Source: a virus
Direction: 5' to 3' (one strand)
Virus record (IMG/VR): IMGVR_UViG_3300025133_004109
Coordinates: 1-29,004 of that record
Length of the DNA: 29,004 bases
Shown here in pieces: positions 3 through 25,615 of the stretch. The translations under genes were made by a program, and so were the position numbers. Under the pieces are notes generated by a model. The model searched no databases. It was not told the DNA's origin and saw only the letters and a program-made list of their open reading frames with translations. The first letter of the stretch is position 1. Each line of letters opens with the position of its first letter.

Positions 3-170
3 TACAAAAGCAGAGGGCAGGAAGGAGAATCGTTAGACCGGATAATAGATGAACGAGGTTTAACTGTACAACCTATTCCGCCCGGTATTCTACCTCATTG
101 GATTGAGCCTAAAGATGTACAGGACCCTGGAACAAAGAAACGATTAGTAGATATCTATGACGACCTATAA
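3..170 (+). CDS. C-terminal end of an unidentified protein, cut by the window edge
   Basis: An open frame enters from the left edge and runs 55 codons to a TAA at 168-170. The visible part is charged and includes the stretches GLTVQPIPPGILPHW and DPGTKKRLVDIYDDL. It overlaps the next gene by 14 nt, the dense packing seen throughout this operon, which supports it as coding. I do not recognise the family. Its position suggests it belongs to the same sugar-related operon, but that is only inference from location. Confidence 0.6.
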   Translation, partial: YKSRGQEGESLDRIIDERGLTVQPIPPGILPHWIEPKDVQDPGTKKRLVDIYDDL

Positions 171-5089: not shown

Positions 5090-6042
5090 AAGTATTAGTA
5101 GTAGGTGGTGCAGGGTACATCGGAGGATGTACCGTAGACACGTTAATTGGCGGCTCTGGTCATGAGGTTACTGTATATGATAATCTCATGTATGAAAATA
5201 TGTATTTAAAGCCGGTTAAATTCATCGCAGGGGATATTAGAGACCCTGAGCTTTATACTGATATCTTACCGAACTACGATGCCGTGGTCTGGTTGGCGGC
5301 TATAGTAGGGGACGGTGCTTGTACCGTTGACCCCGCTCTAACCACCGAGGTTAACTACACTTGCGTGAAGCGCTTGGTTGATAGTTATAAAGGACGAATC
5401 GTCTTCACTTCTACGTGTTCTGTTTACGGTAAGAATGACGCAATCATTGACGAAGAAGCAGAACCAAACCCCCTTTCCCTGTATGCTAAAACTAAATTGC
5501 AGGCTGAGCAGTACCTCGTGGAAAACCATAAAGACTATCTTATTTTTAGATTAGGGACTTTGTTCGGGCTTAGCGACCAGTACTCTAGACTTCGTTTGGA
5601 TTTGGTTGTTAATATCTTAACGAAGAAGGCTACTAGCGGGGAGGACCTAACTGTCTTTGGTGGAGAGCAATGGAGACCGTTACTGCACGTTAAAGATGTA
5701 GCGAGTGCCGTTGCGTATGGCTTAGATAATAGTATTGCAGGTTTATATAACCTTAGCTATGATAACTTTACTATCAGTGAGTTAGCCCGCACAATTCAAG
5801 GGCAGATTCCAGGCGTTAATATCGTGGAAACTGATTTGGCATTTGAGGATATGAGAAATTACAAGGTTAAAACGGACTTGTTCGCAGCGACGGGATGGAC
5901 CCCAATGTGGACATTGGCTGACGGCATTAGTGAGCTACACACAGTAATGAAAGAAGGTAGAATCACGAACGCGAATAATCCGGTTTATAATAACCACGCA
6001 TACATGAAATCAAGAGCAGTAGCAGAGGGGTGGGTATCATGA
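5086..6042 (+). CDS. NAD-dependent epimerase/dehydratase (extended SDR)
   Basis: The 318-residue protein shows GGAGYIGG at 7-14, a conserved IAGDIRD segment (nucleotide-binding Asp), WLAAIVGD, FTSTCSVYG with catalytic Ser/Thr around 108-112, and Tyr133-x3-Lys137 (YAKTK). FRLGTLFG and WRPLLHVKDVA match the C-terminal half of NDP-sugar epimerases. It differs clearly from the SDR at 3735, so the operon carries two separate sugar-nucleotide SDR activities besides the RmlD-like one. The product could be a 4-epimer or a 4-keto-6-deoxy sugar. Start ATG overlaps the previous stop (ATGA). Confidence 0.85.
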   Translation: MKVLVVGGAGYIGGCTVDTLIGGSGHEVTVYDNLMYENMYLKPVKFIAGDIRDPELYTDILPNYDAVVWLAAIVGDGACTVDPALTTEVNYTCVKRLVDSYKGRIVFTSTCSVYGKNDAIIDEEAEPNPLSLYAKTKLQAEQYLVENHKDYLIFRLGTLFGLSDQYSRLRLDLVVNILTKKATSGEDLTVFGGEQWRPLLHVKDVASAVAYGLDNSIAGLYNLSYDNFTISELARTIQGQIPGVNIVETDLAFEDMRNYKVKTDLFAATGWTPMWTLADGISELHTVMKEGRITNANNPVYNNHAYMKSRAVAEGWVS

Positions 6043-6461
6043 GACCGTGGACAATAGATGGTGGAGTTGCCGTCGATGACAGGGGTTCTGTACGGTTTGT
6101 TAACGATTTTACCTTTTCAAATATTAGTAGGTTCTACCAAGTAGAAAACCATAAACGCGGTACTGTTAGAGCATGGCACGGACACAAAACAGAAGCAAAA
6201 TATGTGTATGTAGTGAAAGGCTCAGCTAAAATAGCAACAGTATCAATGCGCGAAGATGACCCTACTCCTAAAGTATGTGTTATGAGCGACAAAAATCCCC
6301 AAGTACTTTACGTTCCGGAGATGCATTACAACGGGTTTCAAACTTTGGAAGAAGATACGATTGTTATGTTCTTTTCTACAAAGCCGTTAGAAGATAGTTT
6401 AAAGGACGACTTCAGAGAAGATTGGAACAAGTGGAATGTCTGGGAGGATGACTACAGGTAA
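6039..6461 (+). CDS. RmlC-like cupin sugar-nucleotide epimerase/isomerase
   Basis: This 140-residue single cupin has the active-site strand VRAWHGHKTEAKYVYVVKG, with His47, His49, Lys50 and Lys60. YVPEMHYNGFQTL forms the second cupin motif. Short cupins of this type group with dTDP-4-dehydrorhamnose 3,5-epimerases and 3,4-ketoisomerases acting on dTDP-4-keto-6-deoxyhexoses. I take 6039 as start (ATGA overlap, GAGGGGTGGG upstream) rather than the GTG at 6030. A paralogue sits at 8678. The exact regiochemistry (3,5- versus 5- or 3,4-) is not determined. Confidence 0.75.
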   Translation: MRPWTIDGGVAVDDRGSVRFVNDFTFSNISRFYQVENHKRGTVRAWHGHKTEAKYVYVVKGSAKIATVSMREDDPTPKVCVMSDKNPQVLYVPEMHYNGFQTLEEDTIVMFFSTKPLEDSLKDDFREDWNKWNVWEDDYR

Positions 6462-7686: not shown

Positions 7687-7712
7687 AGCCATGCCTATAA
7701 TAAGGCATGGCT
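7687..7712 (+). promoter_or_regulatory. Hairpin with TATAAT in the loop and the recombinase ATG in the stem
   Basis: AGCCATGCC (7687-7695) and GGCATGGCT (7704-7712) are perfect 9-bp inverted arms around the 8-nt loop TATAATAA. TATAAT at 7696-7701 is a perfect -10 hexamer. The start codon of the recombinase (7707-7709) lies in the right arm, 5 bases after the -10. There is no clear -35 and no Shine-Dalgarno. As DNA it could be an operator over a promoter for a leaderless mRNA; in read-through RNA it would hide the ATG. Which of these operates is not decided by sequence. Confidence 0.5.
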
Positions 7713-8681
7713 AGTATTCTAGATGATATATGTAAGCGCCTTGACGGCGCTAGTTTGCTTTCTGAGGAAGGGCAGGTTTACGGTTACGTAGACTCCGGCT
7801 CCTACGCCCTTAATAAGATTATTTCGGGGAGGTACGATGGCGGTTATCCTATTGGAGCGATTACCGAAATTTACGGAGAAAGTAGTACGGCGAAAACAGT
7901 TTTTCTAACACACGCTTTTGTAGGAGCACAAAAGAAAGGCTACTACACAGTCATGATAGATAACGAGCACGCCTACTCACCGTCTTTTGCCAAGACATTA
8001 GGCGTAGACCCAGAGAGGCTAATCTATCAAATGCCAGAGACAATGGAAGATTGTTTTGAGGCTATTGAGACTGTTATTGGAGCTATTCGGGAGCACGATA
8101 AAGACACCCCAATTGTTATCGGTTACGACTCCATTGGAGTTTCTCCTACCCGAAAGGAAATGGATGATACGTTTGGAAAGAACAGCGAGATGGGTGGAGC
8201 TCTACGAGCGAAGGTAGCAGGTCAATGCCTGCGTCGAATTAACCCACTTCTCCGCAAGCACAAGGCGGCACTCCTTATTGTAAACCAAGTACGAAGCAAG
8301 GTAGGTGTTATGTTTGGTGACCCTCGCACTAAAGCGGGTGGAGGTAAAGCACTGCTTTACTACTGCGGCGTTTCTTTGGAAACACAGTCTGCTAAGAGCG
8401 ATGTCCTGTATGATGACCTGAAGAATCCTATAGGTATTAAAGGTAATATTAAATGTGTTAAGAATAAAGTTACCGTACCTTATCAGGAATGTGAGTTTAG
8501 GTTAGTGTACGATGAAGGTCTGCGACGAGATACAGGGCTGACCACGTTCATGGCTAAGAAAGGGCAGGTGACGGTACCTTCCAAAGGTTGGTATAGTGCT
8601 GATGGCGGCAAAACGAAATCCCGAGCCGTCGACTTAAATAAGGTTCTATGTGAGAGAATTGAGAAGGGAGAAATTGAATGA
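7707..8681 (+). CDS. RecA/UvsX-type recombinase
   Basis: The 324-residue protein has a RecA core: Walker A GESSTAKT (57-64), a catalytic Glu in DNEH (Glu87), Walker B IVIGYDSIG (136-144) and the DNA-binding L2 region NQVRSKVGVMFGDPRTKAGG (193-212). These proteins form ATP-dependent filaments on single-stranded DNA and drive strand exchange in phage replication and repair. It is somewhat shorter than cellular RecA (about 350) and T4 UvsX (about 390). ATG 7707 fits the N-terminal homology but lies inside the hairpin described separately. The following cupin gene overlaps it by 4 nt, so the two should be co-translated. Confidence 0.9.
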   Translation: MASILDDICKRLDGASLLSEEGQVYGYVDSGSYALNKIISGRYDGGYPIGAITEIYGESSTAKTVFLTHAFVGAQKKGYYTVMIDNEHAYSPSFAKTLGVDPERLIYQMPETMEDCFEAIETVIGAIREHDKDTPIVIGYDSIGVSPTRKEMDDTFGKNSEMGGALRAKVAGQCLRRINPLLRKHKAALLIVNQVRSKVGVMFGDPRTKAGGGKALLYYCGVSLETQSAKSDVLYDDLKNPIGIKGNIKCVKNKVTVPYQECEFRLVYDEGLRRDTGLTTFMAKKGQVTVPSKGWYSADGGKTKSRAVDLNKVLCERIEKGEIE

Positions 8682-10023: not shown

Positions 10024-10334
10024 TGGCAAGAAATTATATCCCTAAGCGCTCATATTTTTCTGAAACGCGTGTTCAGAAGATAGCGAAGGAGGTTATGAAA
10101 GATTGCCAGCAGGACAGGCAAAAAGCGTTAGAGATGTTTCAGTATTTCTTGAAAATGGTCGAAAATAATCCAGAGGATGACAAGGCGAAAGCTGAAATGT
10201 CTAAAGCCTTGGATTTAGCTCAAAGCTCAAATGATAAGGTAGTTAAAGTACTGGACATGATGCTGAAGATGACCCAACATGAAATGAAAGATAAAAAACC
10301 AGACGAATTCTCGTTTGAACAACTCCAAAAATGA
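10023..10334 (+). CDS. Small alpha-helical hypothetical protein
   Basis: A 103-residue, almost wholly helical protein with many Lys, Asp, Glu and Met residues (AKEVMKDCQQDRQKALEMF, KALDLAQSSNDKVVKVLDMM). It starts in a TAATG overlap and ends in a 4-nt overlap with the Clp-like ATPase gene, so it is translated next to that ATPase. It could be an adaptor for it or a small helical packaging or binding protein, but there is no motif to decide. Its function is unknown. Confidence 0.55.
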   Translation: MARNYIPKRSYFSETRVQKIAKEVMKDCQQDRQKALEMFQYFLKMVENNPEDDKAKAEMSKALDLAQSSNDKVVKVLDMMLKMTQHEMKDKKPDEFSFEQLQK

Positions 10335-11548
10335 ACGACCCATACATACTTTATAGCCCCGTTATCGACAACTTCATTAAGATTAAAAAGTTGTCTGAAA
10401 AGGAATGCCTAGTTATTGTAGAGGAGCTTAGAGGAAAAGTTAAAAGCCCTAAGTTCAAAATAACTAATTACGTTAACTACATGATTAGTTTGCTGGTTGA
10501 TAAGCATGAGACTTTAATTAAGGGAAACGGGGAAGGAACTCACGAAGCATTGTTTGAATGTGTATGTGAAGTTTATCCTGGATTTTCTATAGAGCTTTTA
10601 AACAAAACTCTTAATGATGGATTTGAGGACGAATCTGAGGTTGGCGTATCCGTTTCAGGTCTAACTCTTCCGCAGGTGGAGAAGATTGAAAGGAAAATTA
10701 AAAGTTTTTTAGTCGGTCAGGATTCTGCGGTATCAGAGGTTGTGAAGTGCATTAAATTAATGTCCTCAGGATTGGAAGGCTCCACTTCAATGTTTTTCAT
10801 CGGACCTACAGGAGTAGGAAAGACGGAATTAGGCAAGTTACTAGCCAAGTGTTACTTAGGCACGGATAAGAGGTTACTGAAGGTAAACTGTGCCGAGTAC
10901 TCAGGCTCACACGAGTACGCTAAGCTCATCGGAAGCCCTCCAGGGTATATCGGTCATAATGAAAAGGGAATCCTTACTGAGTGCGCTAAGAAGTCGTCTC
11001 AATGGATTCTACTGTTTGATGAGATAGAGAAGGCATCTGACAAATTACATAATCTCTTACTAGGCTTATTAGACGAGGGCAAAATTACCGATTCACATGG
11101 CACGGTTCTGGATTTCACTAATACCATCATCTTATTCACTAGTAATGTGGGTGTTAAAGATGTCGTAAATAGAAAAGCGATGGGATTTGGTGCTGAGAAG
11201 ATGTCATATGCAGATTCCCGGGCTGAGGTGGAAGAAGCGTTCAAGGATACATTTTCTCCGGAATTTATTAATAGACTAGACTCTATTGTGTACTTCAACA
11301 CCCTAAATAAAGATGACGCTAAGCATATTGCTCGTCTTAATCTGAAACATCTCCCTATACGAGTTACGAAGAAGCTCGTGGATTGGGTTGTCGAAGAATC
11401 CTTTTCGGAGGACTTTGGGGCGAGGAACATCAAGCGTTTTATTAAAAATAATATAACCTTACAGGTAGCTGATAAGATACTAGAGGGCAATGCAGACACA
11501 GTATTTTCTCCGGTATTTTCTAAAAATAAATTTCAAGGATTAAAATGA
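10331..11548 (+). CDS. Clp-type AAA+ unfoldase with a single (D2-like) ring
   Basis: The 405-residue protein matches the second ATPase domain of ClpA/ClpB/ClpC: Walker A GPTGVGKT (158-165), substrate pore loop GYIG (205-208), Walker B LLFDEIEKA (227-235), sensor-1 region LFTSNVG, arginine finger in FINRLD (Arg315), and sensor-2 GARN (Arg365). Residues 1-110 are a helical N-terminal region unlike the Clp N-domain. There is no first AAA+ ring. Between sensor 1 and the finger is RKAMGFGAE, where ClpA/ClpC carry the ClpP-docking tripeptide (IGL/VGF). It may therefore feed substrates to the host ClpP. The substrate is unknown; the small helical protein encoded just before it is a candidate partner. 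Confidence 0.85.
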   Translation: MNDPYILYSPVIDNFIKIKKLSEKECLVIVEELRGKVKSPKFKITNYVNYMISLLVDKHETLIKGNGEGTHEALFECVCEVYPGFSIELLNKTLNDGFEDESEVGVSVSGLTLPQVEKIERKIKSFLVGQDSAVSEVVKCIKLMSSGLEGSTSMFFIGPTGVGKTELGKLLAKCYLGTDKRLLKVNCAEYSGSHEYAKLIGSPPGYIGHNEKGILTECAKKSSQWILLFDEIEKASDKLHNLLLGLLDEGKITDSHGTVLDFTNTIILFTSNVGVKDVVNRKAMGFGAEKMSYADSRAEVEEAFKDTFSPEFINRLDSIVYFNTLNKDDAKHIARLNLKHLPIRVTKKLVDWVVEESFSEDFGARNIKRFIKNNITLQVADKILEGNADTVFSPVFSKNKFQGLK

Positions 11549-12258: not shown

Positions 12259-12984
12259 ATGAAAGGAATCGTACTAGCAGGGGGACTCGGAACTCGGTTG
12301 CGCCCTCTTACATACGCTACTAACAAACACCTGCTTCCAGTGTTTGACAAGCCTATGGTTTACTACCCTATCCAATCTTTGGCACAGGCAGGTATCACAG
12401 ATATTATGGTAGTAACAGGCGGACAACACGCGGGAGATTTTATTAAAGTATTAAAAAACGGAGAAGATTTTGGACTGGAGAGACTCAGCTACGCTTATCA
12501 GGAAGGCGAGGGAGGCATCGCGGATGCGCTCGCTATGGCAGAAACATTTGTTGGGGGTGACAGTTGTGCTGTCGTTCTTGGTGATAATATCATTGCTGAT
12601 GATATCACTACTGCTGTTTCCCATTACAATGATTTGGACGGGGCTGTTATCTTTACTAAAGAAGTTGACGACCCGGAAAGGTTCGGCGTGATTAAGTTTG
12701 ATGATACAGGAACCATTATAGAAGATATTATTGAGAAGCCTACTAACCCCCCTTCTAATGAAGCTGTTATAGGGCTGTATATGTACGATAATACAGTGTT
12801 CGATAAGATTCGTTCATTGGCACCGTCACAGCGCGGTGAATTAGAGGTTACGGACCTAAACAAAATGTACTTAGGAGATGGCAAGCTAGAGTCCTGTAAG
12901 ATTAGAGGTACATGGATTGATTGTGGTACGCCTGAATCTCTGGCAAGAGCAACATTTAAATTTTACGAAGATGCAAAAGAATAA
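12259..12984 (+). CDS. rmlA: Glucose-1-phosphate thymidylyltransferase (RmlA)
   Basis: RmlA makes dTDP-glucose from dTTP and glucose-1-phosphate. The 241-residue protein has the signature KGIVLAGGLGTRLRPLTYAT at residues 2-21, with HLLPVFDKPMVYYPI after it. VLGDNI carries the metal-binding Asp, and RFGVIKFD and EKPTNPPSNEAVIGLYMYD form the sugar-phosphate pocket. It ends after the GTWIDCGTPESL segment, about 45-50 residues short of bacterial RmlA (around 290), as in compact phage and archaeal forms. It starts right after a terminator and promoter, heads a three-gene unit with RmlB and an RmlD-like gene, and overlaps RmlB by 14 nt. Confidence 0.93.
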   Translation: MKGIVLAGGLGTRLRPLTYATNKHLLPVFDKPMVYYPIQSLAQAGITDIMVVTGGQHAGDFIKVLKNGEDFGLERLSYAYQEGEGGIADALAMAETFVGGDSCAVVLGDNIIADDITTAVSHYNDLDGAVIFTKEVDDPERFGVIKFDDTGTIIEDIIEKPTNPPSNEAVIGLYMYDNTVFDKIRSLAPSQRGELEVTDLNKMYLGDGKLESCKIRGTWIDCGTPESLARATFKFYEDAKE

Positions 12985-13930
12985 AAAAATAATTATCACG
13001 GGGGGCTATGGATTCATCGGCTCTCGCTTTGTTAAGGCAGTATATGATAAGACTAACTATGAAATACTGGTTATCGATAGTATAACTTATGCCGCTGATT
13101 TCAATAGAATCCCGGACAGGATTAAGGAGGATATCGACAGATTTAGGTTCTTGTCTAAAGATATCTGTGACGTTACTTGCGAAGACTTAAAAGGTGCTAC
13201 TTATTTGGTTAACTTTGCGGCAGAGTCCCATGTTGATAACTCCATCACCGACGGCAAACCTTTTATTAGAAGTAATATTGAGGGAGTGTTTAATTTGTTG
13301 CAGTGTGGAGGAGGTACTGTTAAGAAGTTTATTCAAATATCAACGGATGAAGTTTATGGGGACATGTACGACCTAAGAGGAAGACAGTATGCGGATGAGT
13401 CTTTTAGACTTCGCCCTAGTTCATACTACTCAGCCTCGAAAGCGTCGGCTGACCTGTTAGTACAGGCGGCTGCTCGTACCTTTGGAACCCCTTACATTAT
13501 TACGAGAAGCTGCAACAACTTTGGACCAGGACAGCATAAAGAAAAATTCCTCCCAACAATCTTTGATTCCATAGCAAACGATAAGGACGTTCCGGTATAT
13601 GGGGATGGTCTTCAGTCGCGTGAGTGGATTCATGTAGATGATAATGTAGAAATCATTTTAGAGCTAGTATTATCCAATGTTAAGGACGAGATTTATAACA
13701 TTGGTTCCGGGTACCATTACAAGAATATTGAGCTCGTGAACTATATTGGTGAGTGTTTAGGCACTAAAGTTAAACGTGTTCCCGTGGAAGATAGACTTGG
13801 TCACGATAAAGTTTATAGGCTTAATTGTAAAAAGGTAGAAGGGTTTCTAGGAGAAAGAGTATATCAATGTTTGGAGGGATACTTAAAAGATGAAGCTAAA
13901 GGGCTGCAGGGTACTTCTAACAGGAGCTAA
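12971..13930 (+). CDS. rmlB: dTDP-glucose 4,6-dehydratase (RmlB)
   Basis: The 319-residue extended SDR has GGYGFIGS for NAD+, NFAAESHVDNSI, the RmlB hallmark STDEVYGDM, catalytic YYSASKASAD (Tyr-x3-Lys), and RSCNNFGPGQHKEKFLPT and SREWIHVDDN for the dTDP-glucose pocket. It converts dTDP-glucose to dTDP-4-keto-6-deoxyglucose. I use ATG 12971 because the cofactor motif follows within 15 residues; a longer frame from 12917 would lie inside RmlA. It overlaps the next SDR gene by 41 nt. Confidence 0.93.
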   Translation: MQKNKKIIITGGYGFIGSRFVKAVYDKTNYEILVIDSITYAADFNRIPDRIKEDIDRFRFLSKDICDVTCEDLKGATYLVNFAAESHVDNSITDGKPFIRSNIEGVFNLLQCGGGTVKKFIQISTDEVYGDMYDLRGRQYADESFRLRPSSYYSASKASADLLVQAAARTFGTPYIITRSCNNFGPGQHKEKFLPTIFDSIANDKDVPVYGDGLQSREWIHVDDNVEIILELVLSNVKDEIYNIGSGYHYKNIELVNYIGECLGTKVKRVPVEDRLGHDKVYRLNCKKVEGFLGERVYQCLEGYLKDEAKGLQGTSNRS

Positions 13931-14576
13931 TGGAAGGCTAGGACAAGAACTTATACCTTTATTAGAGGCTGAAGGAGCGGATTTATCCACTCCTTCTTCT
14001 TCTGTCTGGGATATCACGAAAAAGTCTTATCCGCAGTATTTAAGTACTTGGAGCCCTGAGCTAGTTATTCATTGCGCCGCTTACACGGACGTGACGGGAG
14101 CGGAGAGGGAAAGAGGGGACGTTATCGACACTAACATTGTAGGTACCCTCAACGTAGCACAGCTTTCTCGCATGCACCAAGCTAAACTTGTGTACATTTC
14201 TAGCGATTACGCGGCGGTACAGCCTATGGGAATGTATGCTTTTACTAAATTAGCAGGAGAGAGTTTTGCTAGACCTAATGATATGGTAATCCGTACGTCA
14301 TTTAAATCTCGTGGAACTTGGGGGAAAAATGCACTAACAAAGGTGTTTCACCCCGTATTTACTAACGCTGATTGGGTAGATATAATAGCGGGTAAGATTC
14401 TAAAAGCAATAAAACTTGATTTGACGGGTATAGTTAATATCGGAACCAAGAAGAAGACTTTAAAGACTCTTGCTCAACAGGAATATCCGTATGTGGACAT
14501 AATTCCTGTCCGGGAAGCGGATGCTCTAGTAGGATATAAGTATCCTAGGGATTGCTCGATGGATTTAACTATATAA
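13890..14576 (+). CDS. RmlD-like SDR reductase, short form
   Basis: A 228-residue SDR with LLTGANGRLGQEL at the N-terminus, VIHCAAYTDVTGAE (the RmlD-type block), YISSDYAAV and a Tyr-x3-Lys in MYAFTKLAGE. The C-terminal substrate domain is shorter than in RmlD (about 290-300 residues). It most likely reduces a dTDP-4-keto-deoxysugar made by RmlB and a cupin. The start overlaps RmlB by 41 nt, with GGAGGG somewhat far upstream. It closes the rml unit and is followed after 4 nt by virion-type genes. Confidence 0.75.
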   Translation: MKLKGCRVLLTGANGRLGQELIPLLEAEGADLSTPSSSVWDITKKSYPQYLSTWSPELVIHCAAYTDVTGAERERGDVIDTNIVGTLNVAQLSRMHQAKLVYISSDYAAVQPMGMYAFTKLAGESFARPNDMVIRTSFKSRGTWGKNALTKVFHPVFTNADWVDIIAGKILKAIKLDLTGIVNIGTKKKTLKTLAQQEYPYVDIIPVREADALVGYKYPRDCSMDLTI

Positions 14577-15398: not shown

Positions 15399-18300
15399 AT
15401 GGCTCCAGGCAGCAACGACTCGATTGATGTATCATCGGTAATCGACCCAGATAAGGTTGGAGGAACACCAGTTGATACAGTCAGACCGGGGGATGGAACG
15501 GACCATCGCCAGATTATTGTATTGGGTGACCCCCATACCATTGGTGGAGTTGCTGGTGTCGTAGATGGTCAATTAGTTGTATCCGCTGGACCCACTTCCT
15601 CGATGACCGTGGCTGGGGCTACTGCGAATGTCCCTGTTGTTAGAGCTTTAACAGACGCCGTTCTGAGTGTTGATAACATTGAATTTGGGGATGTCAATAT
15701 AGGGGGCACGGTTCATACGTCCTCTATCGGAGGCAAAACAGTATCTGCTTTAGTTACATCCGGTGTCACTGACCTCCTTCATATGGCAAAGTTAGATAGT
15801 ATTGAAGGTAAATTGGATACTATAGACAGTGTTTTAGATGACATTAAAACTGGAACTGATTATTTAGATGAAATTAAAACTGGAACTGATTATTTAGATG
15901 AAATTAAAACTGGAACTGATTATTTAGATGACATAGATGCGGACACTAATGCTATTAAAGGCACTTTGGATGACCATCTAGAAGAAGGATTCAACAACGT
16001 ATCGGGTGGTTTATATCACACTTCCGCAGGTCTGTTTAATGTTTCATCTACTATTAAAGGGCACATTGGGACTTGGTTGGACAACGTGCGGGTTAACCAT
16101 ACCGAGACTCCCGCCGTATCCGCCATGCGTGTCGCTTTACCTGTCGTAGCCGGTGAGTCTGGTGGAGCAACGAACCATCCAACAAATTTCTCTAGACTAG
16201 ACACTTCTGGTCTCTCCTCTATTAATGGTAGCGGGCTTATGACTCACGCTATTATGGTTGGGGATAGGTGGCAACCGATGAGGCAGACAGCTACTGGGCG
16301 AATTGGTGTTGAGGCGCGTATTGTATATCCGGACTCCCTAACCCAATGGATTAACCAGGGTGACTTGGGCTATACCGCCGATGGCGTGGGAGAGGTTAGT
16401 GCATTAAGAAACTTGATGTACGTCAGTGGTAACGATACCGAGGCTTTCCCCCTAATGGGAGACACGGGTGTTAGTGCCTTATACACAAGCGGAGTTAATG
16501 ATTATAATTTATCTAATATTACGGGTTCAGGTTTAGGTGACATAATTACTGTAAACTCTTCTGGTTTAGGAGACCTCATTACTGTAAACTCTTCTGGTTT
16601 AGGAGACATAATTACTGTAAACTCTTCTGGTCTGGGGGATTTAATTACTGTAAACTCTTCTGGTCTGGGGGATTTAATTACTGTAAACTCTTCTGGTTTA
16701 GGAGACATAATTACTGTAAACTCTTCTGGTCTGGGGGATTTAATTACTGTAAACTCTTCTGGTTTAGGAGACATAATTACTGTAAACTCTTCTGGTCTGG
16801 GGGATTTAATGACGCAATTACGAGAAAAGTGTCTACCTGTAAAACAAACATTCTGTCATGAAAATTGGACCTTCTCCAGCGATATACAAGCTCTCTCAGG
16901 GAATGGGTGCTTAGATGCATCTTCTTGTAACCCATGGATGGGTTTCTGGTTTGATACTATCCACGCACCAACCGTAAGGAACGCTAGCTGTACCCCCGAG
17001 GTCATATCTGATGTAGGTAATGATAAGGGAGACGATGGCGATACAGGTCTAACAATTCGAGGTAGCGACGGCGGCGGCAATGGTGGTGGGATTGGTGGTC
17101 CGCCCCACGACCACACCGAAAAGACCGGAATACAGGGGGACCAAAATAACCCTGACTGGGGAGAAAACGCGACCGACAGAGGTCCGGGTTATGACTTAAA
17201 CAAAGCCAGTGCTAGCAATCGAGGAGAATCTGAATACGCATTGGAGTGGCACGGCGGAGCTACGAGCGGCACTGTTCACGACATACCTCCTGATGAGTGG
17301 TATTGCCAACACGCTGTTAAGGTTGATGATGGTGATAATGAGGCAACTGAACTAGCCTTTAACCATAACCTAATGCCTATCGTAGCGCCTAGGAAGGCTG
17401 GCGGAGTTTGGGTTGCGGGCAAGGAAGCGATATCTAAAACCGCTTTTGTCAGGTTAGACAGACCGCATAGCGTTAACCCTCCATTAGGATGGATTCCTAA
17501 TGGGTGTAAGCACTTTTCTGAAAGTCCAGGGGGACAGATTGATAATTCATTCTCCGGCACGGTACGTATGACCAACAACCCGTTTGACATTAGACCTTCA
17601 GAGAATACGGGCTTCGGGTGGTCCTGGTACGACGCAATATCATTACCTAAGAATGTCTCTGCTACGTCTCCTAGCGCAAACGTATCCCCATCAGGAGAGC
17701 TTTGGGACTGGGCTGGTGCTTCAGCAACCGCAGCCGGGACGAACTACCAAGGCGTGAGCTACGCACATTGGGGGGTTAATCAAACTCTCGCTACCGCAGA
17801 AGCACAAAGCCCTCACATCCGTGAAGAAACCGGCGCCGTCGGGAAATGTCTGGTTGTTTCTGGTGGTTATGGAATGTTTGAAACTAGCAGTTGCGCCGTC
17901 GTACCCGAGCATTTTGCGTATATAAAAGACTTTAGCTCTTGCTGGGCTGTTCTTAGCTCTAATACAAACGTTCACCACGAAACCGTTACATTGCCGCATG
18001 GCACGGTGGTGGAAACACCAGCCTTAGAACCCAACACCGAGTACTTGATAACCGCAGAGGTTTCTTGCGTTAATGCAGGGTCTACGTATCGAGGTCAAGA
18101 TTATTCTGGAGCGTTATTTGTGTGGGGAGGAACTTGTTGGGAATCTTCTGCTCAATGTTATCCAACCTATAATGGGGGTGGGGGTCTGCAGTCTCCAAAT
18201 GAAGACAAAATCCACGACCTTCAGGTGTTCCACTCCCTACAGAGTCCGTATATTTTAGCAAAGGCGAGACATATAAACGGCAACCAAGACACTAGAGCTA

Positions 18301-19076
18301 ATTGGGGTAACAACACCACATATCAGGACTTAGGGGTTGTATCTTCCACGTTTAAGACGGATGCGTCATCTACTAACCTTGTATTGGGTTGGGCAGGGCT
18401 AAGGGACATTAGCCAAGGTTACGCAAACAATCACACAGACGTTTGGTGTATCCGTAATATATCTCTTTATAAGAAGTATTACAATACGTGTAAACGTGTA
18501 GTATTACATGGAATTACTATGGACTCAGCCGGAGACACCTCCCTGAAAGAGGATGCGTGGAATATCAAACCTGGGAAACCTAAAGGTACAATGACAGTTT
18601 ACGACGGAAAGTACCCCACGAACCATGGATTTGACCCGCATTGGGCTGGCTGGGCGGGGATTGCGTTTAGTGCTAATCCCTCAGGTCCCCCAGCTAGCGC
18701 TCTGCAATCGTATGGAGCGTTAAACAACACTCAACATGAATCAAACGTACACGCTGAATACAGACACCACGGGGATGCAGTGGGTATGACTAGACAAACC
18801 ACTTTTGACCCTCCTGTACCTTGTCACCCAGGTTACCCGGTGAGAGTAATGTGTACGGAAGAGTGGAATCCCGACTTTACACCTTTCATAGACAAAAAGA
18901 ACCAGGGAAGCGACCTCACTATATTAAACCACGGGGTGCGACCTAGTGATGTATACTGGAATGGTACTATTACCTACTCCATAGAAACTCTGAAGGACGC
19001 AGTGGCGCCCGTAATGACGACTGATACACGTAATCCTAATCAATTAGAAACACCTAACACGGACAAGTGTACATAA
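15399..19076 (+). CDS. Long tail-fibre/appendage-like protein with two tandem repeat arrays
   Basis: This 1225-residue protein is by far the largest here. Residues 1-145 are Gly/Val/Thr-rich beta sequence. Residues 146-175 carry a ten-residue repeat (LDEIKTGTDY) in a coiled-coil-like stretch. Residues 377-471 carry nine 11-residue units (SGLGDIITVNS or SGLGDLITVNS). A Gly-rich linker with HDHTEKTG lies near 555-575. The C-terminal part holds all 18 cysteines. Residues about 860-1025 (LEPNTEYLITAEVSC to CIRNISLYKKYY) have the strand order of carbohydrate-binding modules. This suggests a trimeric or shaft-like fibre with a glycan-binding distal part; receptor binding is inferred. There is no Shine-Dalgarno before ATG 15399. 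Confidence 0.7.
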   Translation: MAPGSNDSIDVSSVIDPDKVGGTPVDTVRPGDGTDHRQIIVLGDPHTIGGVAGVVDGQLVVSAGPTSSMTVAGATANVPVVRALTDAVLSVDNIEFGDVNIGGTVHTSSIGGKTVSALVTSGVTDLLHMAKLDSIEGKLDTIDSVLDDIKTGTDYLDEIKTGTDYLDEIKTGTDYLDDIDADTNAIKGTLDDHLEEGFNNVSGGLYHTSAGLFNVSSTIKGHIGTWLDNVRVNHTETPAVSAMRVALPVVAGESGGATNHPTNFSRLDTSGLSSINGSGLMTHAIMVGDRWQPMRQTATGRIGVEARIVYPDSLTQWINQGDLGYTADGVGEVSALRNLMYVSGNDTEAFPLMGDTGVSALYTSGVNDYNLSNITGSGLGDIITVNSSGLGDLITVNSSGLGDIITVNSSGLGDLITVNSSGLGDLITVNSSGLGDIITVNSSGLGDLITVNSSGLGDIITVNSSGLGDLMTQLREKCLPVKQTFCHENWTFSSDIQALSGNGCLDASSCNPWMGFWFDTIHAPTVRNASCTPEVISDVGNDKGDDGDTGLTIRGSDGGGNGGGIGGPPHDHTEKTGIQGDQNNPDWGENATDRGPGYDLNKASASNRGESEYALEWHGGATSGTVHDIPPDEWYCQHAVKVDDGDNEATELAFNHNLMPIVAPRKAGGVWVAGKEAISKTAFVRLDRPHSVNPPLGWIPNGCKHFSESPGGQIDNSFSGTVRMTNNPFDIRPSENTGFGWSWYDAISLPKNVSATSPSANVSPSGELWDWAGASATAAGTNYQGVSYAHWGVNQTLATAEAQSPHIREETGAVGKCLVVSGGYGMFETSSCAVVPEHFAYIKDFSSCWAVLSSNTNVHHETVTLPHGTVVETPALEPNTEYLITAEVSCVNAGSTYRGQDYSGALFVWGGTCWESSAQCYPTYNGGGGLQSPNEDKIHDLQVFHSLQSPYILAKARHINGNQDTRANWGNNTTYQDLGVVSSTFKTDASSTNLVLGWAGLRDISQGYANNHTDVWCIRNISLYKKYYNTCKRVVLHGITMDSAGDTSLKEDAWNIKPGKPKGTMTVYDGKYPTNHGFDPHWAGWAGIAFSANPSGPPASALQSYGALNNTQHESNVHAEYRHHGDAVGMTRQTTFDPPVPCHPGYPVRVMCTEEWNPDFTPFIDKKNQGSDLTILNHGVRPSDVYWNGTITYSIETLKDAVAPVMTTDTRNPNQLETPNTDKCT
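15834..15923 (+). repeat. Three 30-bp tandem repeats in the fibre gene
   Basis: Three 30-bp units in frame (15834-15863, 15864-15893, 15894-15923), each encoding LD(D/E)IKTGTDY, followed by a partial copy (LDDIDADT). Copies two and three are identical in DNA. Upstream residues (LDSIEGKLDTIDSVL) continue the same heptad-like pattern, so the repeat extends a coiled coil or beta-helical collar. Confidence 0.9.
16527..16811 (+). repeat. Nine 33-bp tandem repeats in the fibre gene
   Basis: Eight full 33-bp units and a partial ninth starting at 16791 encode SGLGD(I/L)ITVNS. Two DNA versions alternate: ggtttaggagacata (Ile type, units 3, 6, 8; unit 1 close) and ggtctgggggattta (Leu type, units 4, 5, 7, 9); unit 2 is a third version. 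The second half, attactgtaaactcttct, is constant. The pattern points to recent unequal recombination. The 11-residue period fits a repetitive beta-type shaft. Confidence 0.95.
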
Positions 19077-20092: not shown

Positions 20093-20620
20093 ATGAAAAC
20101 CCCATGGATAATAACTAATATGAAACAAGGAACAAAAGCAAATAAATCAGGATTGAAACTTGAATCCCAAGTTGAGAATCTTATCATCAAGAACTTGAAA
20201 GTAGACTCCGAGTATGCGAGTCGCTATAAGTCAAGAGAGGATAATGAGGATATTCTACTTAAGAATGTGCCATACACAAACATATATGGCAATACCAAAT
20301 GTCGCTCTGAGTTTGTCCTCTGCTATAAGTCAAGAAAGGTAAGGATAGAATGTAAAACCCAACATTCTGCTGGGAGTGTCGATGAAAAACTACCTTACCT
20401 TTACATGAACTTTACACAAACAATACCAGAATCCGAAGCAATCATTGTGATTGAAGGAAATGGATTTAAGCAAGGGGCAAAAGAGTGGTTGAAAACGAAT
20501 TGTAAAGGAACAAAGGTAAAAGTGATGGACTTATCTGAGTTTCAGCGATACATCATTAGTGGTATGCCGAAAATCGTTCCCTCAATACAGAATCGTATAA
20601 AAAACTGGTTGAGCGGTTAG
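20093..20620 (+). CDS. PD-(D/E)XK-like nuclease
   Basis: A 175-residue protein with the layout of small PD-(D/E)XK endonucleases: an N-terminal helix with LKLESQVENLI (Glu24), then EFVLCYKSRKVRIECKTQ, where Glu73, Glu86 and Lys88 (E-C-K) would form the metal site, followed by IVIEGNGFKQGAKEWL. Such enzymes cut DNA; in phages they serve as homing, repair or host-degrading nucleases. Two YKSR stretches are encoded by the ATAAGTCAA motif that also lies upstream. The ATG lacks a strong ribosome-binding site. Position beside tRNA genes at a compositional border would suit a mobile nuclease, but that is inference. Confidence 0.6.
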   Translation: MKTPWIITNMKQGTKANKSGLKLESQVENLIIKNLKVDSEYASRYKSREDNEDILLKNVPYTNIYGNTKCRSEFVLCYKSRKVRIECKTQHSAGSVDEKLPYLYMNFTQTIPESEAIIVIEGNGFKQGAKEWLKTNCKGTKVKVMDLSEFQRYIISGMPKIVPSIQNRIKNWLSG

Positions 20621-21224: not shown

Positions 21225-21253
21225 TTGACAGGAAGCACTTTTTTTGGTATAAT
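21225..21253 (+). promoter_or_regulatory. Perfect sigma70 promoter
   Basis: TTGACA (21225-21230), a 17-nt spacer and TATAAT (21248-21253) match the bacterial sigma70 consensus exactly. Transcription should begin near 21260, giving a leader of about 53 nt that contains a small TGGGA/TCCCA hairpin and then AGGAGGT before the ATG at 21313. It should drive the AAA+/CobT-like/VWA operon early, using host polymerase. Confidence 0.92.
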
Positions 21254-21312
21254 ATATGTTCAATGTGGGACTCACAAACTCCCATTTCAACTCAATACTA
21301 AAAGGAGGTAAA

Positions 21313-22107
21313 ATGTTTGTAATAGATAAAATCAAGAAAGATATGATAGCGGAACTTGTTTCGCAAGAACAAAGTGTTCTATTGACAGGGGCAACAGGCT
21401 GTGGAAAGACTACTTTATGTAAGGAAATCGCTGATGACCTAGACATGAATGTGGTTATTGTAAACATGGGTTCGACACAAGATGCTCGCACTACACTAAT
21501 TGGTTATCACACATTACAAGATGGTGAAACCAAGTTTGAGAAATCTGCTTTCATAAATGCGATTCAACAAGAAAATACTTTGATTATTCTTGATGAGTTG
21601 AGTAGAGCAAGTGATGATGCGTATAACATTATCTTCCCACTTTTGGATTTTCGTAAAGAGGTTCATGTAGAAGAAACAGGTGAAACTATTAAAGTTGCTG
21701 ATGGCGTTAGATTTATCTCTACTGCCAATGTAGGTTTGGAATACTCATCTGCTCGTTCTATTGACAGGGCTTTACAAGACCGATTTATGATTTTCAACAT
21801 TCCATACATGACAGGAAAAGAGTTGAAAGGATACATTAAGACTGTTCATGGTAAGGAGATTGCTTCTTCTATGGCTAACTTGTGTAGTGTTTATGATTAT
21901 AGTCATCAACAATACGAAAAGTCTCGCATTTCTGCGAAAATGTCTCCTCGTATGATTCTAAACTGTTGTAGTTTAGTTGGTAAGTTTACTGATGCTGAAG
22001 TTATGAACAATGTTTTGTTGTCTATGTTTGAGCAAGATAGCAGTAGCATTACTTCTGACGCAAACATTATGCGTGAATACGCTGATTCTTTAGGAATGTT
22101 TAACTAA
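21313..22107 (+). CDS. MoxR/CobS-like AAA+ ATPase
   Basis: A 264-residue AAA+ protein with Walker A GATGCGKT (26-33), Walker B IILDELSRA (91-99), sensor 1 STANVG (Asn139), an arginine finger in RALQDRF (Arg157) and a late SPR sensor-2-type motif (KMSPRMIL). This matches the MoxR/CobS group, whose members work with VWA-domain partners to remodel or load metal into other proteins. The start is ATG 21313, with AGGAGGT at correct spacing; an in-frame ATG at 21256 lies before the expected transcript start. It shares one base with the next gene (TAATG), a CobT-like partner. Confidence 0.88.
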   Translation: MFVIDKIKKDMIAELVSQEQSVLLTGATGCGKTTLCKEIADDLDMNVVIVNMGSTQDARTTLIGYHTLQDGETKFEKSAFINAIQQENTLIILDELSRASDDAYNIIFPLLDFRKEVHVEETGETIKVADGVRFISTANVGLEYSSARSIDRALQDRFMIFNIPYMTGKELKGYIKTVHGKEIASSMANLCSVYDYSHQQYEKSRISAKMSPRMILNCCSLVGKFTDAEVMNNVLLSMFEQDSSSITSDANIMREYADSLGMFN

Positions 22108-23399
22108 TGAACGAAAGGGAAATAGACGCAACACTTATGAATAAGTGGTTGGGGGATAAGAAAATTACAGACTTATCTCCTAAGACTCTCTATGATATTC
22201 AGACTTTGATTGAGTATTACAGAGATGTGATTGTTCCCAATGTAGATGTGAAAGTTGGATTTCCTGTTGAGGGTATCCCATGTGCTGATACGGATAAGAA
22301 AGAAATCTTTATACCATATCATATGTTGAAAGAAGGTCGTGTTGATGAAACCATTGGTGCGATGATTCACGAACTAAGGCACATTGAAGATACTCCTGTA
22401 AAGGAAAAAACCGTAGCACCTATTTGGTCTTTACTTAATAAGATTCTAAATAGTCTCAAACTAGACAATGGAAAGACGATTGCGGAAGTTGTATTTTCAG
22501 ATTCATCATATACGCTAAACGCTATTTTGCGTGAGCCTAAAGATGATGAGAGATATGACCCAAATCTGTTTTTTCTTCGTGAAGCGTGTGGAGTCCTTTT
22601 CGGTTTAGCAAATGCGACTGAAGATGTTAGGATTGACACTAACACTCCCCCAAACCTAAAAAAGTATATCGACAAGATAGACAAAAATGCTTTTGAGAAG
22701 TTTGAGGAAGCACGACAGAAAGGGGACATTGAGGATTGGGATTCTTTACATACCATGTTGTTCCGTTTCATATTTCATCATAAAGGTTACTACAATGACC
22801 CTTTGATTGAAAAGATTTCTCCTACAACAGAAGAAATCTGTGGGATGGGTTCTGTTGAAGCAATCACAAATGTGTTTGATAGATTCAGAGATACTTGCCA
22901 AGAAGAAGTTGCCAAACTATTTAATCAGTATGTTCCACCACAACCTAATGATGGCGATGGGGAAGATTTGATGGATATGTTTGATGACTATGTTGGAGAT
23001 ATGGTAAACGAAGAACTACAAAATGACCTTGCTAACCAAGCAGGAGATGATGGTGGTGCTACAAAAGGTATTACCTTAGAAGAGAAAAGTGTAGGAGATT
23101 TTGCTAAGACGCACGATACAACTACTGAAATAGAACAAACAGAAGGCGAGAAAACAATGTCGCATGATGACGCTGTTGAAAATGGGCAAACACAATGTAA
23201 GCCCTTCGCCAAAAAGGAAACTCCAATGAAGGAGTTTGCTAAAACAATGAACGCTGATGCTAGGACACAACTAATATCAGCAGAACTAAATGCTCAAATC
23301 CAAAACTTCTCTAACATACAAGTCCATACGACTACTGAGAACTTTGGAAGAGACACAAACACAACTTACGATACCGTCATTTTTGACGCAACAAAATAA
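22107..23399 (+). CDS. CobT-like protein with HExxH metallopeptidase-type motif, lacking a VWA domain
   Basis: A 430-residue protein. Residues 84-95 (GAMIHELRHIED) contain His88-Glu89-x2-His92, the zinc-site motif. ANATEDVRID (around Glu172) matches the ED-R motif of CobT-like and VWA-associated metallopeptidases and could supply the third ligand. Residues about 275-400 are acidic and low complexity (NDGDGEDLMDMFDDYV), like the CobT linker. A VWA domain, which should follow, is absent: the frame ends, and the VWA is encoded separately at 24153. It is coupled to the AAA+ gene. Proteolytic activity is possible but unproven. Confidence 0.72.
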   Translation: MNEREIDATLMNKWLGDKKITDLSPKTLYDIQTLIEYYRDVIVPNVDVKVGFPVEGIPCADTDKKEIFIPYHMLKEGRVDETIGAMIHELRHIEDTPVKEKTVAPIWSLLNKILNSLKLDNGKTIAEVVFSDSSYTLNAILREPKDDERYDPNLFFLREACGVLFGLANATEDVRIDTNTPPNLKKYIDKIDKNAFEKFEEARQKGDIEDWDSLHTMLFRFIFHHKGYYNDPLIEKISPTTEEICGMGSVEAITNVFDRFRDTCQEEVAKLFNQYVPPQPNDGDGEDLMDMFDDYVGDMVNEELQNDLANQAGDDGGATKGITLEEKSVGDFAKTHDTTTEIEQTEGEKTMSHDDAVENGQTQCKPFAKKETPMKEFAKTMNADARTQLISAELNAQIQNFSNIQVHTTTENFGRDTNTTYDTVIFDATK

Positions 23400-23413
23400 C
23401 AAAGGAGATTACA

Positions 23414-24160
23414 ATGGTTAATAAACCCGAAATGTATCACATGGAGCATTACTTAAAAGATGCCCAATCACTACCCAAAGAAGCACTTGCTATCGTGTCC
23501 GAACAAGATATGTTAGGATATGAAAAGGAATACGCAGTTTACCAAAAGATTCAACAAGAGGCGGTTCAGAAATGTTCAACTCTTGTGAGCGAAGTAAAAG
23601 AGCGTATAAGTGTTTTGTTTGGAGGAAACTACTCTAAGCAATATAAGTATTTTGATAGAGCAGTTATGGGGGGCGAGATTTTGACCGACCAACATAACAG
23701 TTTGTTCCCTAAGCCAAATGTGGTTCGTGATTTAGTAGAAACTGCTAAACTGCGATGCCCTAATATCCAAACAGATAATAGTGTTGGTGGACGCAGTAAT
23801 GAGAGTGTAGAAGAAATGAACTCAGCAGTATCATACTTGCTAGGAGAAGGTCTTACTCTTAATACTGATTTTACTGTTGGTAACGCTGTTGAAGTAGCGA
23901 AAGCAAGAAAGGCTACGGAGTTTCATGCTAACATGGCTTCAAAACTTAGAGGATACTTAGATGGAACGAAATTTCCTAAAATGGCGATGAAGGATAACTT
24001 CAAGGGAACAAGTTGTGTTGATGACGATTGTTTAAGTGAACACATTAAGTTTGATGCTATACATGACAAGTTTGACTGTAAATGTGGCAGTAATTCTTAC
24101 AAAGGTTGTGTAGGAACAAACGCCGAAGGGTGTTGGGAGTTTTCTGTAACTGATGCCTAG
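23414..24160 (+). CDS. Unknown protein of the AAA+/VWA operon with a cysteine-rich end
   Basis: A 248-residue protein preceded by AAAGGAG. The first two thirds are helical and charged. The C-terminal 50 residues hold several Cys and His residues (CVDDDCLSEHIKF, DKFDCKCGSNSYKGCVG, NAEGCWEF), suggesting a zinc or other metal site. No family is recognised. It sits exactly between the CobT-like N-terminal part and the VWA protein, overlapping the latter by 8 nt, so it is probably a third partner of the same complex. Confidence 0.6.
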   Translation: MVNKPEMYHMEHYLKDAQSLPKEALAIVSEQDMLGYEKEYAVYQKIQQEAVQKCSTLVSEVKERISVLFGGNYSKQYKYFDRAVMGGEILTDQHNSLFPKPNVVRDLVETAKLRCPNIQTDNSVGGRSNESVEEMNSAVSYLLGEGLTLNTDFTVGNAVEVAKARKATEFHANMASKLRGYLDGTKFPKMAMKDNFKGTSCVDDDCLSEHIKFDAIHDKFDCKCGSNSYKGCVGTNAEGCWEFSVTDA

Positions 24161-25073
24161 AAGTAATACCGACAACATTTCCCTCTGTAAAGAGGGAATG
24201 TTCTCCGTCCAAGATTGGAGGACAGAGGATAACAAACATCTCCGAGATGTTATGTATAACCGATTCAAGAATCAAGTTTCATTGCTTCTTGAAAGTAAAA
24301 AACCAAAAGCCTTTCACTCAACTAAAGGTCGATTAGACCCTCGTAGAGCGTATAGGAGTCCGTTTAGTGATAATATCTTTTTACAAACTACAAAAGTGCC
24401 TAATGGAGATACTACTATCGTCATGTTAATTGACGGTAGTGGTTCTATGGATTGTGGCGTGGAAGTCTTTGGGAAAGGATATACTCGTATTGGTGTGTGT
24501 AATGCTATTGTATCCGCTTTTTCTAAAGCGGTAAACGATGTGTTAGGTAATGAAATCAAGATTGAAGTGTTCCTAAAGTCTGCCCCTTCCTATCATGGTA
24601 AGGCAATCACAGGAACTGATAACGGAAGTTTTGTTACTCTTACAAGAGTGTTTAGTAACTCTAATAAGAACTTGGACTTTGATAAAATCTTGAAGTTAGA
24701 TTGTGTTTCTCCCATTAAGAGAGGTGGTAGCAACGATGGCAGTTATACTGCTGAGTATGCTGTGTTACCTGCTTTGTTAAAATGGATGAATAAGAACATT
24801 GTTACGAAGAATGTAGTTCTGTTTAATCTAACTGATGGAGATGCGTATTGCTCTTTGGGCAGTAACAATATGAGTTTCAATGACGAGGAAAATAAGCAAA
24901 TGCGAATCAAGTATTTGAGAAATGTTCCTAACGCAACAATGTCTATCGGTGGCAGAAGTAATCATAACCATATGACCAATGTGTATGGGCAGAATGTGAT
25001 TGAATGTGATGACGATGGTTTTCATGTTAAAATGTTTAATACCTTTATGACCTTTATTGGAGAAGCACTATGA
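24153..25073 (+). CDS. VWA-domain protein (CobT C-terminal-like)
   Basis: A 306-residue protein. GRLDPRRAYRSPFSDNIF (59-76) is the segment that precedes the VWA domain in CobT-type proteins. IVMLIDGSGSMD contains the MIDAS motif Asp94-x-Ser96-x-Ser98, and LFNLTDGDAY supplies the later Thr227/Asp228. VWA domains bind Mg2+ and ligands and couple MoxR/CobS AAA+ rings to substrates. It overlaps the cysteine-rich gene by 8 nt and the sigma-like gene by 4 nt. Together with the genes at 21313 and 22107 it forms a split CobS-CobT-like set. Confidence 0.83.
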   Translation: MPRSNTDNISLCKEGMFSVQDWRTEDNKHLRDVMYNRFKNQVSLLLESKKPKAFHSTKGRLDPRRAYRSPFSDNIFLQTTKVPNGDTTIVMLIDGSGSMDCGVEVFGKGYTRIGVCNAIVSAFSKAVNDVLGNEIKIEVFLKSAPSYHGKAITGTDNGSFVTLTRVFSNSNKNLDFDKILKLDCVSPIKRGGSNDGSYTAEYAVLPALLKWMNKNIVTKNVVLFNLTDGDAYCSLGSNNMSFNDEENKQMRIKYLRNVPNATMSIGGRSNHNHMTNVYGQNVIECDDDGFHVKMFNTFMTFIGEAL

Positions 25074-25615
25074 TTTCTAATGAACAATGGGAAAAGGTGG
25101 AGAAAAAGTATAAAAAACTTATGTGGCACATCTCGCACAGAATCGGACAAGACCCTATCACAAATGATAAGGCAGATTCTTACCAAGAGTTAAGCATAAC
25201 TTGTTTAGACGCAATCCGAACTTTTGCCAAATCAACAAATACAGAGTTTGATGACTTCTTTGATACAGTAGCATTTGATAAGTATATTAAAACTTGTCTG
25301 TGGAACAAAAAGAATAATCAAGGAATGAAGATTGTAAAGAGAGAACCTTTGCGTAGGCAAATAACGATTGAAGAAAGTTTACTTACTGAGAAAGCGATAA
25401 ACCCAAAAGAGGCTTTTGAACCTTTCGGATTAGAAAACTTTGATGCTAACTTACAAGAAATCATTGACGCTATCCAACAAGATGGCAAGATGATTAAGCC
25501 AAGCGGTAGAATAAATGTCAATCGCATGGCAACATACACAAACAAACCAAAGTCGCAAATCAAACATAGCATTGAACGACTACAAAAACAACTAATAAAT
25601 GATTTCGGAGAATAG
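25070..25615 (+). CDS. Sigma-factor-like protein (possible phage late sigma)
   Basis: A 181-residue protein with a region-2-like pattern: a helix at 8-25, then DSYQELSITCLDAIRTF (36-52), matching the D-x-x-QE-x-x-x-x-L-x-A-x-x-x-F signature of sigma70 region 2, then FDKYIKTCLWNKKNNQ. The C-terminus (VNRMATYTNKPKSQIKHSI) looks like a helix-turn-helix. Such proteins direct host RNA polymerase to phage promoters, as T4 gp55 does, although gp55 itself is not closely similar by eye. It is coupled to the VWA gene by an ATGA overlap. An anti-sigma or unrelated DNA-binding protein remains possible. Confidence 0.5.
   Translation: MISNEQWEKVEKKYKKLMWHISHRIGQDPITNDKADSYQELSITCLDAIRTFAKSTNTEFDDFFDTVAFDKYIKTCLWNKKNNQGMKIVKREPLRRQITIEESLLTEKAINPKEAFEPFGLENFDANLQEIIDAIQQDGKMIKPSGRINVNRMATYTNKPKSQIKHSIERLQKQLINDFGE

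Follow-up and report, generated by a model that had tools for sequence, protein, structure and literature searches.

Several AAA+ ATPases of the MoxR clade act together with a partner protein that carries a VWA domain and its metal ion-dependent adhesion site (MIDAS). Midasin, NorQ, CbbQ and CobS have all been placed in such AAA+/VWA pairs (PMC13036017, PMC8651126), and for NorQ/NorD, CbbQ/CbbO, RavA/ViaA and midasin the available excerpts of the literature describe ATP-driven remodelling and report no peptidase (PMC13036017, PMC9976466). In the NorQ/NorD pair, NorQ is proposed to rotate the VWA domain of NorD, stretching the linker that joins it to the NorD N-domain (PMC13036017), and changes to the NorD MIDAS abolish activity but not NorQ binding (PMC9976466). 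Related pairs have also been found in viruses. The cobS gene is a cyanophage core gene (PMC3037559), cobST clusters are reported to be widespread in tailed viruses, with cobT split into two open reading frames (ORFs) in HHTV-2 (PMC8651126), and group 2.2 jumbo phages encode a MoxR-vWA pair with an N-terminal metallopeptidase, for which virion assembly with proteolytic processing has been proposed (PMC7824862). Other viral or bacterial MoxR-vWA systems have been described as well (PMC7911831, PMC7159879). Here, we describe a related module in the IMG/VR virus record IMGVR_UViG_3300025133_004109, a stretch of 29,004 bases referred to as the window, within which module positions are counted on the plus strand. 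From position 21225, a promoter is followed by four plus-strand genes encoding a MoxR/CobS-type AAA+ ATPase (P0001), an HExxH protein (P0002), a middle protein (P0003, hereafter P3) and a VWA protein (P0004). With a probability of roughly 0.55, we propose that the products of these four genes form a single phage remodelling machine of the MoxR-type AAA+/VWA kind, one subunit of which is a metallopeptidase.

The genes are tightly coupled, as a preliminary description of the locus had indicated. The gene of P0001 (264 amino acids, aa; 21313-22107) overlaps that of P0002 (430 aa; 22107-23399) by 1 nucleotide (nt), 14 nt separate the latter from the P3 gene (248 aa; 23414-24160), and this in turn overlaps the gene of P0004 (306 aa; 24153-25073) by 8 nt. 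Searching viral_contigs with the proteins or profiles of the ATPase, HExxH and VWA components yielded 31 IMG/VR contigs, 25 of which, some of them near-identical, carry the complete four-gene set with unchanged order and strand, so that the gene order looked for in other phage genomes was found. Two of these 25 (L035 and L036) end within the VWA gene, and a further one was analysed as two neighbouring loci (L037 and L046). Among the remaining six, L013, L050 and L075 are truncated at a contig end and have their remaining genes in order, L076, L077 and L078 lack P3, and no contig of the 31 shows another gene order. Because the contigs were found via the components themselves and several are near-identical (P0001, P0002 and P0004 are 100% identical in L003, L004 and L005), this count is neither independent nor does it exclude distant lone copies.

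Profile comparison indicates that the HExxH and VWA proteins, which occupy separate genes in all 25 complete clusters, correspond to consecutive parts of a chain that is fused elsewhere. In Bacteroides phage BS162P1, LR756508 and MT835482, the ATPase lies directly upstream of its partner, as it does here, but the partner is one chain (ORFs of 602-640 aa) with no gene between its parts. All three of these gut/jumbo-type chains carry HExxH, ED.RI and MIDAS. The HExxH family maps onto columns 96-306 of the three chains (probability 91.6%, E 8.1e-7) and the VWA family onto columns 377-475 (probability 93.3%, E 2.6e-7), with a gut/jumbo-type profile of three sequences only and E-values that are pairwise. 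The jumbo-phage pair of PMC7824862, as far as it is described there, likewise sets a MoxR ATPase beside a metallopeptidase and vWA partner, fused in that case, whereas the module here has two proteins with P3 between them. In cyanophages, the partner encoded near a CobS-like ATPase is likewise a single chain, in which HExxH and EDxRI are followed by an acidic stretch, a G.L motif and MIDAS; that of S-CREM2 is matched by 463 of 50,697 phage records at E 1e-5. HExxH is present in 7/7 aligned cyanophage-type chains, one of which comes from Ochrobactrum phage OC, as well as in Mae-Yong1326-1. This pair of CobS (phrog_249) and ‘peptidase’/CobT-like protein (phrog_459) has HExxH, ED.RI, G.L and MIDAS in the same order as the module, but it differs in being a single chain and in its gene order, as the CobT-like gene precedes that of the ATPase and 0 to 5 genes separate them. 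The VWA family matches the cyanophage one-chain proteins at 97.7% (E 1.4e-12), and HExxH and ED.RI fall in register between these chains and the P0002 family. Compared with these related phages, in which HExxH and VWA form one chain, the module has no covalent link between the two parts, and the P3 gene lies at the point where the chain is interrupted.

The closest precedent for the split is HHTV-2, where gp2 carries HEVQH and EDNHID and gp3 the VWA domain. HExxH and VWA are thus on separate proteins, as in the present module, but gp2 and gp3 are adjacent without a middle gene and the ATPase, gp10, lies six genes further on. Another HHTV-2 protein, gp8, was considered as the HExxH part and rejected, as the motif is missing from gp8 and found in gp2. 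The preliminary description had viewed this locus as one AAA+/HExxH/VWA unit split with an extra middle protein, which is supported by the gene order in 25/31 contigs and by the mapping onto fused chains. The split CobT-like pair of HHTV-2 had already been published (PMC8651126). What is new is the conserved split plus the added P3, while a phage MoxR/CobS ATPase with a one-chain HExxH/VWA partner was already known. In the available parts of the open-licence PMC literature, no module split in three, with a gene in the middle, was found.

P0001 matches AAA_5 (E 1.8e-19) and phrog_249 (E 7.7e-29), and its Walker A residues and LDELSR motif are invariant in 18/18 aligned ATPases, in agreement with its earlier identification as MoxR/CobS-like. 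Of the solved relatives of the ATPase profile, midasin is the best, scoring far above the others across several stretches of one chain, and is followed by NorQ, CbbQ and CobS, with CobS (50.7-53.1 bits) and NorQ (51.4-57 bits) about equal. A VWA partner alongside, as expected of the MoxR clade, is encoded in 29/31 contigs, and L013 and L075, the two exceptions, end upstream of where it would lie. A scan of genome_contigs with the ATPase profile, which is pattern-based, detects near relatives and offers no proof of absence, returned two distant ATPases. Microcystis phage Mel-JY01 also has an ATPase related to P0001 (E 1.2e-59), which lies in the C-terminal half of a 560-aa protein (L056, 7170-8852). 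P0004 proved to be a separate VWA protein with an intact MIDAS, as had been claimed. DGSGSM occupies residues 94-99 (24432-24449), T199 lies at 24747-24749 and D228 at 24834-24836, and the five residues D94, S96, S98, T199 and D228 are invariant in 17/17 aligned VWA proteins; phrog_459 was matched by each of the six VWA proteins tested. The pre-VWA motif KGRLDPRRAYR (24324-24356) is, by eye, common to phage CobT-like proteins and cellular CobT.

In P0002, HELRH is found at residues 88-92 (22368-22382) and EDVRID at residues 172-177, of which EDVR (residues 172-175) spans 22620-22631. An alignment of 18 HExxH proteins, comprising P0002 and 17 others with 27-37% identity to it, shows H88, E89, L90, H92, E172, D173, R175, I176 and D177 to be invariant, and thus HExxH and ED(V/I)RID in 18/18, which substantiates the HELRH and ED-R motifs noted before. 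The structure model (mean predicted local distance difference test, pLDDT, 73.3; predicted template modelling score, pTM, 0.71) contains an N-domain of strands with helix 79-95 bearing HELRH and helix 152-178 bearing E172, along with a low-confidence linker and a conserved C-terminal tail (residues 395-426; 23289-23384) in which two strands are predicted. This matches the gluzincin pattern, in which HExxH is complemented by a Glu further along the chain on a second helix, with H88, E89, H92 and E172 all invariant, and E172 is proposed as the third ligand of the predicted zinc site. Eight of the first nine Protein Data Bank (PDB) rows from Foldseek are the minigluzincins selecase, abylysin and jannalysin (probability 0.66-0.99), and VIA places minigluzincins, over 97-103 residues, and the M48 peptidase BepA at Z 6.0-6.8. 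The HExxH domain is predicted to be gluzincin-like, albeit on weak fold statistics, because the leading fold rows are metallopeptidases and both motifs lie on the helices expected for them.

A number of observations weigh against a machine with a metallopeptidase subunit. The Foldseek E-values for the P0002 model are 0.31 and above, and since unmatched models typically reach a best Z of 7-8 in VIA, a Z of 6.8 alone is not above background. The viral library yielded nothing at E 0.001, and in searches with the P0002 sequence profile, abylysin ranks below unrelated chains, at no better than E 0.6. The HExxH family matches the cyanophage chains weakly, with a local probability of 26% over the ED.RI motif only and global values of 11.7% and 47.4% depending on direction. 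For Mel-JY01, no VWA or HExxH relative was found below E 0.1 within the 16.8 kb read of its 190-kb genome. In addition, L076, L077 and L078, representing two divergent types, keep the ATPase and VWA genes and have neither HExxH nor P3. The HExxH position in L077 reads RAFRK and the ED motif FEDIKLD, and L078, examined at the level of whole ORFs, has ORFs of the same lengths and no HExxH. In L076, a 352-aa ORF occupies the place of the HExxH protein, but it has no HExxH and is not recognised by the HExxH profile; its kinship is suggested by position and alignment by eye, and the 103-aa ORF that comes after it resembles the P0002 C-terminal tail by eye. The MIDAS in these divergent VWA proteins reads DISGSM (L076) or DASSSM (L077), and trees do not separate one loss from two in L076 and L077, as their long branches meet. 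The preliminary description would have counted homologues occurring without each other as a refutation; all four do occur together in 25/31 contigs, but the absence of HExxH and P3 from three divergent contigs leaves this co-occurrence incomplete and indicates that proteolysis is not essential to every member.

These exceptions bear most directly on the chief rival explanation, in which the same remodelling machine uses the HExxH domain as a zinc-dependent or merely structural target-binder that cuts no protein. Such a domain would explain why L077 and L078 retain the ATPase and VWA without HExxH (RAFRK in L077) and why the L076 ORF at that place is also without it. It would also be in keeping with the cellular CobT examined, which keeps HDNAVH and VEQARVE and no HExxH, and with NorQD, the best-studied relative, which is described as remodelling without a protease (PMC13036017). 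On the other hand, HExxH and the downstream ED are invariant in all 18 aligned proteins, down to 27% identity, and the motif persists in the 7/7 cyanophage-type chains, Mae-Yong1326-1, the 3/3 gut/jumbo-type chains and gp2 of HHTV-2. In HExxH, the Glu serves as the catalytic base, and it has been kept even though a structural zinc site would not need one. We regard a non-cutting domain as unlikely, if less so than the other rivals. The proteolytic device suggested in the preliminary description fits the HExxH and Glu pattern and the predicted fold, but the divergent contigs with ATPase and VWA and without HExxH suggest that not every member depends on it.

The protein that sets this module apart is P3, which is present in 25/31 contigs with a further partial copy in L075. 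Its model (mean pLDDT 75.5, pTM 0.47) shows a confident helical core up to about residue 115 (23414-23758), in which K78, Y79 and R82 are invariant in 18/18, and an uncertain tail; short P3 proteins (114-132 aa) consist of little beyond this core. The tail holds a C-x4-C...C-x-C motif (24014-24085), a possible zinc knuckle that is not kept in all, as C-x(2-4)-C...C-x-C is found in 7/12 long P3 proteins and 0/6 short ones. The earlier label ‘cysteine-rich’ is thus suitable for the C-terminal tail but not for the remainder or for the short proteins. Fold searches with the model remained without a convincing match (best E 1.5 in Foldseek, best Z 5.1 in VIA), P0003 matched nothing in Pfam, NCBIfam or PADLOC and had a single PHROGs match at E 0.08, and profile comparison with the cyanophage chains, the HExxH family and the VWA family gave no match. 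The occurrence of P3 without the other components was tested in named loci and records only: with its profile, none of nine phage loci (L055-L063) and three bacterial loci yielded an ORF at E up to 5, nor did the records of L076, L077 and L078 yield P3 (0/3 at E up to 10), which may be fragments, while both comparison records were positive. A short motif, KYF.R...G, is picked up weakly in the fused gut/jumbo chains (hmmsearch E 0.015 for L089 and 0.22 for L087; hhalign E 0.012, probability 3.6%, 29 residues) and may be regarded as the sole lead towards the origin of P3. It falls in columns 377-475, which the VWA family itself covers, so descent of P3 from the ancestral chain is not claimed. 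As the HExxH and VWA proteins match parts of one chain and P3 matches nothing convincingly, P3 is best read as an addition. A tentative proposal, with the odds against it, is that P3 is a non-covalent coupler, or clutch, between the AAA+/VWA rotor and the gluzincin peptidase at a natural, conserved break of the linker for which stretching by VWA rotation is proposed in NorD; the joint absence of P3 and HExxH from two divergent types fits with P3 serving the peptidase.

In the remodelling machine with a metallopeptidase subunit, P0001 would form a hexamer, and the VWA protein would dock on the ATPase pore, where the MIDAS metal would hold an acidic residue of the target. ATP turnover would then move the VWA part, while the separate HExxH protein, presumably gluzincin-like and binding zinc via H88, H92 and E172, would anchor the target, clip it, or both. 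P3 may be an accessory protein, either linking the HExxH protein to the other components or presenting the target, which is perhaps a phage assembly or replication complex.

The module is preceded by a sigma70-type promoter, TTGACA-N17-TATAAT with TG before the -10 box (21225-21253), which matches the consensus at 12/12 positions and, with its 17-nt spacer, is as perfect as first described. It is the one such site in the window, and 200 dinucleotide shuffles gave a mean of 0.005, with 1 shuffle having any. The site is also largely conserved, in that 17/21 loci, the window included, have a site with TG and at least 10/12 matches whose -35 box starts 55-107 nt before the ATPase start, in a survey that took the best site within 250 nt at five spacings with no local control and that included the near-identical L035 and L036. 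The other four are L033 (only 101 nt of upstream sequence), L047 (9/12), L076 (9/12) and L077 (10/12, no TG). When the plus strand of 16 loci was scanned for sites with at least 11/12 matches, the ATPase-promoter site was the only hit in 7 loci, shared the list with a second hit in another 4 and was missing from the hits in 5 (L015, L031, L054, L076, L077); L031, L054 and L077 have such promoter-like sites elsewhere in the locus. The ATPase start is taken as the ATG at 21313, behind the Shine-Dalgarno sequence AGGAGG (21303-21308) and in agreement with the conserved N-terminus, as the ATG of the longer ORF (21256) begins only 2 nt past the -10 box. The RNA leader (21253-21330) shows no unusual fold (z 1.0).

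Given its own sigma70-like promoter, the operon could be read by a host-type RNA polymerase, and together with the PD-(D/E)XK nuclease-like gene upstream, this promoter may point to a protease machine for host takeover or anti-defence, which early in infection would unfold a host protein and degrade it. We consider such a role improbable. None of P0002-P0004 has a PADLOC model match at E 0.01, 4/7 cyanophage-type loci (L058, L061, L062, L063) place the pair between annotated recombination-endonuclease and sliding-clamp genes, and conservation across divergent phages would seem to suit a general function better.

A further alternative is a viral cobaltochelatase, CobST, which together with host CobN would boost cobalamin synthesis. 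The phage module is kin to CobST, as cellular CobS/CobT share with it an AAA+ and VWA partnership and the pre-VWA motif, and hijacking of host CobN has been proposed for viral CobST (PMC8651126). Also in favour, phrog_249 is labelled porphyrin biosynthesis, the VWA profile finds the CobT of the Methylobacterium genome behind L081 at E 8e-5, and the ATPase profile scores CobS about as well as NorQ, with the ORF beside this CobT, presumably CobS, at 55.9 bits. The preliminary description assumed that in CobT the HExxH/ED-R part, acidic linker and VWA form one chain. This fails for the one cellular CobT examined (633 aa), which has HDNAVH and VEQARVE and no HExxH, unlike the module's partner P0002; HExxH and VWA in one chain are instead the layout of phage CobT-like proteins. 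Moreover, Pfam CobT (PF06213) has no match in 7/7 HExxH proteins at E up to 1, although the same model finds cellular CobT, and no CobN was found in 8/8 related phage records, all possibly fragments. The CobT VWA domain PF11775 is matched in 1/17 members (E 0.1). A chelatase is quite improbable, and the earlier statement that cobaltochelation is an unlikely target is plausible, even though the ATPase is about as close to cellular CobS as to NorQ. Lastly, while related phages do have one chain, decay or sequencing error of a one-chain gene can be dismissed for practical purposes as the source of the split, since the same split recurs across 25 contigs, which range from near-identical copies to members with as little as 27% identity, and in which each part has its own start and a conserved gene lies between them.

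Directly downstream, a sigma-factor-like gene (25070-25615, plus strand) overlaps the VWA gene by 4 nt and is viewed here as a conserved neighbour, not as a member of the machine. A relative is found in 26/31 module contigs, from adjacent to about 2.5 kb downstream, and in the other five the sequence ends within or just past the module; 11/16 family members have weak matches to phrog_351 (sigma factor; best E 6.2e-5). The PD-(D/E)XK nuclease-like gene lies upstream at 20093-20620 (PDDEXK_11, E 4.5e-26), and an ORF at 13461-14039 of L078 is similar to it by eye. Elsewhere in the window, 157-6461 and 12259-14576 contain many nucleotide-sugar or glycan-type genes (epimerase-, nucleotidyltransferase- and glycosyltransferase-like, by eye from the ORF list), and a RecA/UvsX-like recombinase at 7707-8681 has 2,792 matching phage records, all below 60% identity. 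A second AAA+ protein at 10331-11548 is Clp-like by eye, with an AAA_5 match (E 6.7e-12) at 10790-11149, and a 1225-aa ORF at 15399-19076 with a run of SGLGDxITVNS-type repeats is tail-fibre-like by eye.

The function of phage CobST is disputed, with help in cobalamin synthesis on one side and an assembly chaperone with proteolysis on the other (PMC7824862). If P3 is indeed a coupler, the module would represent a modular ATP-driven phage protease, a layout not found among published MoxR-VWA systems to the extent that these sources cover them. The divergent contigs without HExxH suggest that the motor and VWA core can exist without the peptidase part. In this module, the peptidase, the VWA protein and the extra factor are separate proteins, and each could be removed or mutated alone. 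Furthermore, NorD has its N-domain joined to the VWA domain by a linker, whereas here no covalent linker joins the two, so that the linker-stretch model of NorQD could be tested on this module.

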